Source of the DNA: Gluconobacter wancherniae NBRC 103581
GTDB taxonomy: Bacteria; Pseudomonadota; Alphaproteobacteria; Acetobacterales; Acetobacteraceae
Assembly: GCF_007988885.1 (NCBI RefSeq)
Contig: NZ_BJUZ01000003.1
Coordinates: 62,001 to 126,000, forward strand
Reading direction: 5' to 3'
DNA length: 64,000 bases
Made by a program: the position numbers and the translations under genes. The first letter of the stretch is position 1. Every line of letters begins with the position of its first letter. The notes under the pieces are model-generated. The model ran no database searches. It was not told where the DNA came from and saw only the letters and a program-made list of their open reading frames with translations. Positions 58,603-61,313 of this stretch are shown here, piece by piece.

Positions 58603-59303
58603 GATTGCTTCTGGGCCGTCAGGGCATTTCTGAGCATAGGAACCAGTTCAGACAGGTGACTGATCCGCACAAAGCCAGGAGCGGGCCAGAAGGCCGGTAA
58701 AGGGGCATCTGCGTCACGAAGAAGCACACAGGCCATACCTGCTTTGAGAGCAGCCTCTGCACCCGTATCACTATCTTCGATCACCACGCATTCCTCTGCC
58801 TTCACGCCCTCAGTACGCGCGGCATGCAGATAGACCTCGGGGGAAGGCTTTGGATGGCCCATGTCATTGGCAGAATGGATGCGCTCTGCGGGAAATGCAT
58901 CCGTCATGTCTGTCCGCTCGAATTTCGCTTCCATTTCCTTGATAGAGGAATTGGAACCAACACGTATGGGCAAACCAGCAGCAAGAACACCAGCAAGCAT
59001 ATGCGCTGCGCCATCAACCGGCTCCGCCTGTTCTTCCATCAGACGGATCAGGTTGTCTCGCAGCCTCGCGGCAGTATCTTGAGGAAGCTCGTGGCCCACG
59101 TCTTCCTCAAGCTCTTTCACGATCTGTGGGAGCGCTTTTCCTGCAAAGCGCTCGAAGGCCTCGTGTTCCGTTATGGACAGGCCAAGAGACTGTGCAAACT
59201 GAGCGGTAGCCCGACAGGATGGGCCTTCGCTGTCCACAAGGACACCGTCACAGTCAAAAATAACCAGCTTCAGATGGCCGGAATCATCAAGGGCTGAACT
59301 CAT
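58599..59303 (-). CDS. HAD-family sugar phosphatase/phosphatase
   Basis: 234 residues of the HAD subfamily I (beta-phosphoglucomutase or phosphoglycolate phosphatase-like). Motif I is FDCDGVLVDSE, motif II GSNSS, motif III with Lys in MGHPKPSPE, and motif IV EDSDTGAEAA. Substrate unknown; sugar phosphates are usual. Both ends overlap its operon neighbours by four bases (hemE before, hemJ after). Confidence 0.88.
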   Translation of the reverse strand: MSSALDDSGHLKLVIFDCDGVLVDSEGPSCRATAQFAQSLGLSITEHEAFERFAGKALPQIVKELEEDVGHELPQDTAARLRDNLIRLMEEQAEPVDGAAHMLAGVLAAGLPIRVGSNSSIKEMEAKFERTDMTDAFPAERIHSANDMGHPKPSPEVYLHAARTEGVKAEECVVIEDSDTGAEAALKAGMACVLLRDADAPLPAFWPAPGFVRISHLSELVPMLRNALTAQKQS

Positions 59304-60349
59304 GGTGCACGTACCGCTTCGATCAGGGTTGCGACATTCTCCGGCGGCGTATGCTGCATGACGCCATGTCCAAGATTGAAGACATGTGGGCGGCCACGCA
59401 ATGCGTTGCGGATGGCATCAACTTCCTGGATCATGGACTGACCACCAGAGAACAGAACCATAGGATCAAGGTTCCCTTGAAGGGTCAGATTCGGCACGAG
59501 TTTTGCAACTTCTGCCGGATCAGCAACCGTATCCATCGCCAGAGTACCTACTCCAGTCTGCTCGGCATATTCCTTGACCATGACACCTGCGAGACGGGGA
59601 AAACCGATGATCGGAGTGTTCGGGTAGCGACTGCGGATATGGGAAACGATCTGACGCGTCGGCTCGATCACATATCGGCGGAAGGCGCTTGGTGGGAGTA
59701 TTCCTGCCCAGGAATCGAACAGCATCACAGCCTCAGCACCTGCTTCAATCTGACCACACAGCATTTCGGCAGTTTGGCAGGTAAGGAGATCGATCAGACG
59801 GTCGAAAAGAGCGGGATCAGTCTGCATCATACGGCGGGTTTCTGCGAAATCTCGCGATCCACCACCTTCAACCATGTAGCACGAAACGGTAAAAGGACTG
59901 CCAGCAAACCCCAGCAGAGTTGTGGCCCCAGGAAGCTGTTTAGTGAGGCGGGACAACGTTTCTCGCACAGGAGCCGTCGCATCCTGTACGCGTTTTGGAT
60001 CGAGCTTATCGAGGTCTGCGGCTGACCGAATGGCTCCTAGCACAGGGCCACGGCCATCAATGAATTCGAGGCTCTGCCCCATCGCCCACGGAAGAATCAG
60101 GATGTCGGAGAACAAGATTGCGCCATCCATGCCATAACGGCGGATTGGCTGGATCGTGAGTTCTGTCGCGATGTCCGGTGTCATGCATCTGGTGAGGAAA
60201 TCTGCCCGCTCCCGCATGGCCCGGAACTCAGGAAGATAGCGGCCTGCCTGTCGCATCAACCAGACCGGAGGTGGCCACACTGCCTCACCCCGCAGGGCCC
60301 GGAGGAGCGGTTTGGACGAAGGGGAGAGGGTGTGTTTTTCCGAAATCAT
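59300..60349 (-). CDS. hemE: Uroporphyrinogen decarboxylase
   Basis: Decarboxylates uroporphyrinogen III to coproporphyrinogen in haem synthesis. The 349 residues include the N-terminal signature PPPVWLMRQAGRYLPEFR (substrate-binding Arg), SDILILPWAMG with the catalytic Asp, and the GHGVMQHTPPENV end. ATG 60,349 is fixed by the conserved N-terminus; the longer open frame runs into the putative origin. hemE next to the replication origin is a known arrangement in Caulobacter and other alphaproteobacteria. Confidence 0.97.
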   Translation of the reverse strand: MISEKHTLSPSSKPLLRALRGEAVWPPPVWLMRQAGRYLPEFRAMRERADFLTRCMTPDIATELTIQPIRRYGMDGAILFSDILILPWAMGQSLEFIDGRGPVLGAIRSAADLDKLDPKRVQDATAPVRETLSRLTKQLPGATTLLGFAGSPFTVSCYMVEGGGSRDFAETRRMMQTDPALFDRLIDLLTCQTAEMLCGQIEAGAEAVMLFDSWAGILPPSAFRRYVIEPTRQIVSHIRSRYPNTPIIGFPRLAGVMVKEYAEQTGVGTLAMDTVADPAEVAKLVPNLTLQGNLDPMVLFSGGQSMIQEVDAIRNALRGRPHVFNLGHGVMQHTPPENVATLIEAVRAP

Positions 60350-60701
60350 GCAGCCCACTAACCATGAAAGAAAAAAGAAAGAAATCCTGACGGAGTAGTT
60401 GATACCTGTGGATACCGGGGTACCCGGCTTTCGAGAAATGTACCCCGACTTGCCCACACTGTGTACAACTTCAGGAATGAGAGCCTGCAAGGGCTACAGG
60501 ATTCTATCCCGAATTTCCCACAGGAGCCCTGTGTACAACCCCCATTTTCAGGCTTTGGACGTACAATCCACGGTACTCGGTACTGACATCATCAAAACCA
60601 TGTACCATCCCCATGTACCCCAGTACTGACGCAAACTCTTCACCGGTTCATTTGCAGTACTGCCAACAATTCAACCAGTCGAGAGTACGGAGTCGTACAT
60701 C
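60350..60701. other. Putative chromosomal replication origin (oriC)
   Basis: Gene-free gap between divergent hemE and maf, the position of the origin in Caulobacter and Rickettsia. It has an AT-rich purine stretch (60,362-60,387). DnaA-box-like 9-mers include TGTGGATAC (60,407), TTGCCCACA (60,450), TGTGTACAA (60,460 and 60,530) and TTTCCCACA (60,514). Thirteen GTAC palindromes fall between 60,420 and 60,698. Two GANTC sites (60,500; 60,690) could be CcrM methylation targets. parAB and three parS sites lie in the same window. Confidence 0.75.
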
Positions 60702-61313
60702 ATGAATTCCCTGAGTACTTCCCTCACGCTTGCCAGCGCTTCCAGCGCCAGGCGCATGCTCCTTGAGGATGCTGGCCTTCATATAAGAATCAGGCCCGTT
60801 GATCTTGATGAGGAAACGCTTCGAAAAGCTTGTACGGATGCGGGTCTTTCTTTAGGAAAAACCGCAGTCTCTCTAGCAGAATCAAAGGCCAGGCAAGCTG
60901 CCTCACTGGCAGAAAAAGACGAGTTGATCTTGGCAGCAGATCAGATTCTGGACTTCAAGGGAGCTGTTTTCAGTAAGCCAGCCGCCATTTCTGAGGCGCG
61001 GGAGCAACTTTTGGCCCTTCGTGGAGGGGTGCATATTCTGCGTACTGCCATCGTGCTTTGGCGTGGTGAAAAGAAGCTATGGGAGCATCTCGCTAGCCCG
61101 TCCCTGACGATGCGCTCGTTCTCAGAAGCATTTCTCGACGCCTATCTGGAGGAGGAGGGTGAAAGGATACTCTCCTGCGTTGGGGCATACCGACTGGAGG
61201 GACCCGGTGTACATCTGTTTTCCAGCATAGAGGGTTCTCAGGACGCCATCCTTGGTCTGCCGCGTTTGCCATTACTGAATGAACTGCGCAGAATGGGTGT
61301 GTTGATGAGCTGA
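60702..61313 (+). CDS. maf: Maf-family nucleotide pyrophosphatase
   Basis: 203 residues. The Maf/YceF/YhdE fold hydrolyses non-canonical or specific nucleoside triphosphates and is linked to septum inhibition. The signature LASASSARRMLLEDAG is at the N-terminus; the catalytic Asp lies in AADQIL, and the SFSEAFLDAYL and YRLEGPGVHLFSSIEGSQDAILGLPRLPL regions follow. It begins directly at the putative origin, as does its counterpart in Caulobacter and Rickettsia. Confidence 0.93.
   Translation: MNSLSTSLTLASASSARRMLLEDAGLHIRIRPVDLDEETLRKACTDAGLSLGKTAVSLAESKARQAASLAEKDELILAADQILDFKGAVFSKPAAISEAREQLLALRGGVHILRTAIVLWRGEKKLWEHLASPSLTMRSFSEAFLDAYLEEEGERILSCVGAYRLEGPGVHLFSSIEGSQDAILGLPRLPLLNELRRMGVLMS

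Follow-up and report, generated by a model that had tools for sequence, protein, structure and literature searches.

Control of replication initiation by methylation is known in detail for the GATC/Dam/SeqA system of the gammaproteobacteria. In E. coli, oriC is packed with GATC palindromes that lie beside DnaA boxes, are methylated by Dam, an orphan methyltransferase, and are read by SeqA. The consensus of the DnaA box is TTATCCACA. In the alphaproteobacteria, CtrA sites are not universal at replication origins, according to the available part of PMC1914354. The word GTAC is the site of RsaI, and SMRT data from the source strain, R. blasticus, showed N4-methylcytosine (m4C) in GTAC, assigned by prediction to M.RsaI (PMC6256690); GTAC is also methylated by M.PabI, which produces m6A (PMC4357717, available part). 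For M.Ssp6803II of Synechocystis (GGm4CC), the available part of PMC6560206 has the authors tie N4-cytosine methylation to the fine-tuning of replication. A search of the open-licence literature by titles and abstract starts gave, among the matches listed, none that deals with GTAC at oriC or with GTAC methylation in acetic acid bacteria.

We analysed a stretch of 64,000 nucleotides from Gluconobacter wancherniae NBRC 103581 (hereafter, the window), in which the gap between hemE and maf is packed with GTAC palindromes. This gap is probably the chromosomal replication origin.

The GTAC cluster between hemE and maf

The gap is flanked on the left by hemE (uroporphyrinogen decarboxylase, 59300..60349, minus strand, PF01208, E=1e-116, start codon chosen at 60349) and on the right by maf (60702..61313, plus strand, PF02545, E=4e-37). 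Downstream of maf lies a gene for a metallophosphoesterase (PF00149; 61642-62757), possibly an SbcD-like exonuclease. The gap holds 13 GTAC in 279 bp (60420..60698), with starts at 60420, 60440, 60463, 60533, 60561, 60573, 60580, 60602, 60615, 60623, 60657, 60685, and 60695, which is the highest density of any 280-bp stretch in the window. The composition of the window gives an expectation of 0.6 for the gap, and dinucleotide shuffles of the gap (n=5000) gave a mean of 1.75 (sd 1.2) and a maximum of 7. A sequence-only reading of this DNA had already counted 13 sites in about 280 bases, far above chance, and had listed repeated words around them. Both observations hold, and all copies of the words were located: TGTGTACAA occurs twice (60460, 60530), ATGTACC three times (60438, 60600, 60613), AGTACTG twice (60622, 60656), and GGTACTG once (60579). 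Triplets of GTAC whose spacers do not exceed 30 are found at 21 places in the genome (2.78 Mb, 9 contigs). Ten of these start inside the gap, and no second cluster of overlapping triplets exists elsewhere in the genome. One triplet lies about 370 bp behind the C-terminal match of DnaA (G000 C1:1236664); its counterpart was not found near dnaA in another genome, G136.

The gap also holds candidate origin elements. Next to hemE lies an A-rich purine tract, ATGAAAGAAAAAAGAAAGAAAT (60364..60385, plus strand), a candidate unwinding region that is largely kept in an alignment of 18 gaps. A near-canonical DnaA box on the minus strand (60407..60415; GTATCCACA, reading TGTGGATAC on the plus strand) agrees with the consensus at 8 of 9 positions. 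The first GTAC (60420..60423), at +13 from the start of this box, belongs to a module, TGTG-N9-GTAC, that is common to more distant Acetobacteraceae, and the canonical-type box TGTGGAT is kept beside it in most of the 18 aligned gaps. Two DnaA-like boxes of sequence TTGTACACA contain a GTAC themselves, both on the minus strand. The core TGTACA of the one at 60460..60468 is invariant in the 18 aligned gaps, as is CTGTGTACAA in the one at 60530..60538. Weak matches on the plus strand are TTGCCCACA (60450..60458, 7/9) and TTTCCCACA (60514..60522). The gap of the window thus has one box at 8/9, several at 7/9, and no perfect TTATCCACA. The earlier statement that variants replace the canonical boxes missed the near-canonical one at 60407-60415. 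Finally, a word match to the CcrM-type site GANTC (GAGTC, 60690..60694) adjoins the last GTAC. Each of the 56 clustered gaps described below has at least one GANTC, often as GGAGTCG near maf, and the CtrA site TTAA-N7-TTAA was found in none of them.

Conservation and position of the cluster

We retrieved 79 loci with matches to hemE and maf and dropped nine in which maf is more than 1 kb away, which left 70 gaps, 64 of them nonredundant. Clusters of 6 to 16 GTAC are present in 56 of the 64, from Gluconobacter, Acetobacter, Komagataeibacter, Gluconacetobacter, Novacetimonas, Acidomonas, Endobacter, and relatives. GTAC is the most over-represented of the 136 tetranucleotides in every one of the 56, with a total of 689 copies observed and 117 expected. 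The loss of GTAC words in close relatives, which the sequence-only reading had named as evidence against itself, did not occur: ten Gluconobacter loci hold 11-14 GTAC each (the hemE of named Gluconobacter is 84-86% identical to that of the window). Three Commensalibacter loci, where maf was not found, have 10-11 GTAC per 300 bp, and the cluster is kept there although the upstream stretch has 29-37% G+C. More distant named loci (L072-L111, minus those of Commensalibacter and a Novacetimonas locus) have at most 3 GTAC per 300 bp. Three records of metagenome-assembled genomes titled Asaia bogorensis or Nitrosovibrio (L075, L080, L100) have a hemE 59-61% identical to that of the window and are without a GTAC cluster; these records are probably mistitled.

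Across the 18 aligned gaps, several GTAC keep their position and have conserved neighbours, and others come and go. When sites are pooled, no common flanks emerge: the flanks are nearly free, and the 56 clustered gaps show 67 different NNGTACNN contexts. The half-sites GTA and TAC outside GTAC are rarer in the gaps (0.17 and 0.20 of expectation) than in the flanks (0.37 and 0.34). Free flanks, the number of contexts, and the lack of a half-site excess together point to an all-or-none site of 4 bp, the signature expected if selection acts on the bare GTAC word. The conservation of a GTAC layer at the origin is firm.

The position of the cluster was compared with the GC skew. The cumulative skew of the contig that contains the window (C3; 202 kb, less 2 kb) is lowest in a 5-kb bin whose end is 122000, and rises thereafter; in the coordinates of this contig the cluster spans 122420-122698. 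The cluster sits at the skew minimum of its contig. In G060, a 3.0-Mb contig sampled at 20 points of 15 kb (noisy over the first 450 kb), the sign turns from negative to positive between the samples that begin at 1.945 and 1.968 Mb, and the gap lies near 1.967 Mb. The flip in G025 is at about 1.84 Mb, with the gap at about 1.8745 Mb; because these are some 30 kb apart, the fit is approximate. An oriC is annotated near dnaA in the complete genome of A. pasteurianus 386B (PMC3751514, available part). In G060 and G025, dnaA is not at the negative-to-positive turn of the skew; the contig of G060 begins at dnaA (1.2 kb).

Low counts (0-2 GTAC) are seen in eight of the 64 gaps, seven of them from Bombella, Parasaccharibacter, Saccharibacter, or near relatives and one from G066; among the loci of the Bombella group, L003-L005, L038-L042, and L044 show such gaps. 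Loss of the cluster in this group was rejected on the strength of three genomes. The same sequence is found on the same contig 25-26 kb from hemE in two of them (G118:C28:887196-887403, L267, and G032:C21:59534-59699). It is also present in G150, the genome of L044, at C6:49031-49195, away from the hemE-maf gap; provided that C6 is the contig of L044, the distance to hemE is 24 kb. The moved cluster of G118, a Bombella-type genome, has 11 GTAC in 300 bp. The skew minimum of this genome falls in the 2.5-kb bin 885001-887500, together with the moved cluster, and not at hemE (912 kb). It is therefore the GTAC cluster that marks the origin, and the GTAC unit moves with it. The assignment of oriC made by the sequence-only reading is well supported by the skew minimum of C3, the flip in G060, and the minimum at the moved copy, with G025 about 30 kb off. 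The GTAC signature offers a simple sequence marker for oriC in industrial acetic acid bacteria.

An orphan methyltransferase and its distribution

We searched 30 genomes for the domain PF01555. Each has one strong match (E 2e-59 or better), taken as CcrM, plus a second match. CcrM methylates GANTC and was rejected as the GTAC enzyme, since this site does not explain GTAC. Of the second matches, 20 were fetched, of which 19 are the same protein, hereafter MTase2, and the one from G066 is another, type III-like protein. The MTase2 gene of the genome studied here lies outside the window (G000:C1:582316-583143). It encodes a protein of about 276 residues (PF01555, E=1e-40) with the features of the beta class: the PF01555 domain, the catalytic SPPY (motif IV, TSPPY), the SAM motif, and the beta order of motifs. 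TSPPYN and DPF.G.G are invariant in the 19 sequences. With a profile built from these, MTase2 was detected in 71 of the 150 Acetobacteraceae searched (E up to 1e-30). Among 385 Alphaproteobacteria there were 4 with the protein (E up to 1e-40), and each of these belongs to the Acetobacteraceae. Within about 1 kb to either side of MTase2, the open reading frames that recur in four or more of the 19 loci, inspected by eye, include an apparent MltA (18/19), a cytochrome-like frame (11), and a frame that looks like an Smr protein (7), and no endonuclease was recognised among them. In the more distant Acetobacteraceae G067, G143, G109, G010, G064, and G105, MTase2 is about 4-9 kb from hemE and thereby from the origin.

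The specificity of MTase2 can be approached through its homologues. It is 43% and 42% identical over 255-257 residues to methyltransferases of the Synechococcus phages ACG-2014j and Syn19, whose genes lie directly behind genes annotated as R.RsaI endonuclease, and the alignment extends through the middle region expected to read the target; the identity to the presumed CcrM of its own genome is 26%. The name R.RsaI is the submitter's label, and the proteins that bear it (L414 2008-2511, L415 974-1489) have no Pfam match at E 0.001. Other phage matches are slightly closer (45-46%), and homologues in Paracoccus are closer still (49-50%, with the enzyme of this genome 49% identical to a Paracoccus plasmid protein); no annotated endonuclease lies beside the latter. 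MTase2 likely methylates GTAC at the origin, as an M.RsaI-like orphan enzyme, a kinship drawn through the phage homologues rather than the sequence of M.RsaI itself. The modified base is probably the cytosine, at N4. The SPPY motif fits m4C methyltransferases, without proving m4C. The submitters' label of the Syn19 enzyme, DNA adenine methylase, does not favour m4C. A structure model (mean pLDDT 76, with lower values in parts of residues 41-51 and 125-202) matches the folds of CcrM, a rotifer N4C enzyme, and M.PvuII; as modelled, the protein would fit the beta class whether it makes m6A or m4C, so that the base is left undecided by the fold.

We then compared the presence of the enzyme with that of its presumed sites. 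Of the 145 genomes that match hemE, 110 were read up to 600 nt upstream of the gene, and G101, G118, and G032 were set aside as moved origins (G101 on the strength of its relatives). GTAC occurs within 600 nt of hemE in 66/66 genomes with MTase2 and 19/41 without it, and the TGTG-N9-GTAC module in 60/66 and 13/41, respectively (Fisher p 6e-12 for GTAC and 2e-10 for the module, kinship ignored). In a partly overlapping set of 90 regions, which includes named loci (MTase2 was sought in 50/80 of them), GTAC is present in 46/46 with MTase2 and 14/44 without. In many genomes without MTase2, GGGGAGGCA or similar follows the DnaA box at the place where the other genomes have GGGTACCC. An independent-pairs test that used a tree of hemE from 106 genomes (one was dropped as too short) gave 8 supported pairs and was not significant: for the module, 1.6 pairs differ the same way, 2.0 the other way, and 4.4 show no difference, and for the presence of GTAC the values are 0.9, 0, and 7.1. 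The reason is that the association rests mainly on two groups that lack both MTase2 and the module. Twenty-one more distant genomes, which form one group, are without either, and one of them has a single GTAC. The acetic acid bacteria G066, G029, and G116 are likewise without either and have 0-1 GTAC. In other parts of the tree, several genomes have kept the module but not MTase2.

In G066 (L031; 2.0 Mb), which lacks MTase2, the hemE-maf gap of 755 bp has no GTAC and holds 14 perfect TTATCCACA boxes, which suggests that loss of the GTAC/MTase2 system was compensated by a stronger conventional origin. G029 and G116 have 5 and 9 DnaA boxes with at most one mismatch. The 13 of 41 genomes that keep the module without MTase2 (e.g., G092, G148, G084, G114), 10 of which are over 95% complete, are the strongest result against a methylation reading. 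A search for a PF01555 protein that might substitute for MTase2 where the module is kept gave no clear common candidate.

Probable methylation, rival readings, and known systems

It seems fairly probable that this is a methylation-marked origin, Dam/GATC-like in kind, in which GTAC and an M.RsaI-like MTase2 take the parts of GATC and Dam. The conserved GTAC and the probable GTAC methyltransferase suggest a second, independently evolved system of timing by methylation, and control of initiation by GTAC methylation is plausible. Canonical DnaA would start replication from a few DnaA-like boxes beside the A-rich tract. A second code would be overlaid on these, made of GTAC palindromes selected as bare 4-bp sites, which the conserved orphan MTase2 would methylate, probably at N4 of the cytosine. 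After replication, many GTAC would be hemimethylated for a time, and this state might alter the access of DnaA or attract a reader, thereby limiting initiation to once per cycle as GATC, Dam, and SeqA do in E. coli. With one DnaA box beginning 13 nt ahead of the first GTAC and a GTAC inside each of the two TTGTACACA boxes, the mark could act on DnaA binding directly or via a sequestering reader. SeqA (PF03925) was found in none of 22 acetic acid bacteria, with a positive control in E. coli; a reader unrelated to SeqA may exist. The full proposal, namely that the Acetobacteraceae have a second, independent methylation clock in which m4C is placed in GTAC at oriC and the hemimethylated state, read by a novel protein or by DnaA, blocks re-initiation, is more tentative, and we give it slightly less than an even chance. 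If true, it would have converged on the gammaproteobacterial solution with a different word, class of enzyme, and reader, in strains that are easy to handle in the laboratory, and it would mean replication licensing by N4-methylcytosine.

Three other readings of the cluster can be set against this one. GTAC might be the core site of a dimeric, palindrome-reading protein that binds the origin independently of methylation, MTase2 being incidental. The module kept in 13 of the 41 genomes without MTase2 speaks for it, as do the nonsignificant pairs test and the position-specific conserved flanks of some sites. We nevertheless find it unlikely, since 67 contexts with no half-site excess are unusual for a binding site, GTAC is at the origin in all 66 MTase2-positive genomes, and the kinship of the enzyme to partners of annotated R.RsaI would have to be coincidence. 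The second origin-binding protein suggested by the sequence-only reading came closer to the present view than its other proposal (below): the best candidate is the orphan GTAC methyltransferase, a classical binding protein is less so, and a reader may exist. That the build-up has nothing to do with replication, as a mutational or compositional quirk or a promoter feature of hemE and maf, is hardly credible. A gap between divergent genes should indeed hold promoters, but GTAC ranks first in all 56 clustered gaps, the cluster persists at 29% G+C and has no second of its kind in the genome, and in G118 it lies away from hemE and maf, yet at the skew minimum.

The third reading concerns DnaA itself, which in acetic acid bacteria might read GTAC-containing boxes such as TTGTACACA instead of TTATCCACA. 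This box occurs twice in the window, the cores TGTACA and CTGTGTACAA do not vary in the 18 aligned gaps, and the gap of G066, without GTAC, has 14 canonical boxes. Few of the 13 GTAC sites resemble a DnaA box, however, and TGTGGAT is retained beside the first GTAC in most aligned gaps. All 30 genomes looked at (a set without G029 and G116) have the segments RDHTT and ARPRQ in domain IV of DnaA, which we take to be canonical from the E. coli protein. The 30 include the GTAC-free G066, whose DnaA differs at other residues nearby. To judge from these segments, the DNA-binding domain looks canonical, so that DnaA should still read ordinary boxes and neither an altered specificity nor a rewritten code is supported. 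We consider this reading very unlikely, and the lineage-specific initiator-binding code proposed earlier, which would also sit uneasily with pooled GTAC sites that share no flanks, is not retained.

Returning to a methylation-marked origin, the locus can be compared with four known systems. With the RsaI system (Rhodobacter blasticus 28/5; GTAC, m4C) it has in common the word and an enzyme related, through two cyanophages, to those paired with annotated R.RsaI. Unlike that system, no endonuclease was recognised beside MTase2, which is widespread in one family and not a scattered cassette. M.Ssp6803II, to which the GTAC enzyme would be akin in linking N4-cytosine methylation with replication, differs in its site, and no clustering at the origin is seen for it in the available part of PMC6560206. 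As in the Cori of Caulobacter crescentus, on which DnaA, CtrA, and IHF act, the origin is on the hemE side and has DnaA boxes (PMC1914354, available part). In contrast to Cori, as far as the same part of that source describes it, the 56 clustered gaps have no TTAA-N7-TTAA CtrA site, maf adjoins the gap where Cori has COG1806, and there is a GTAC layer, of which none is seen for Cori. GANTC and a presumed CcrM gene are present, as in Caulobacter. The likeness to the oriC of E. coli is in the arrangement: one 4-bp palindrome, a probable methylation site, is packed beside DnaA boxes and goes with an orphan methyltransferase. The parts differ, the word being GTAC rather than GATC, the enzyme a beta-class protein with SPPY (probably making m4C) outside the Dam family, and SeqA not being found in the 22 genomes searched. 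By this analogy, the GTAC origin would be functionally Dam/GATC-like without being a member of that system.
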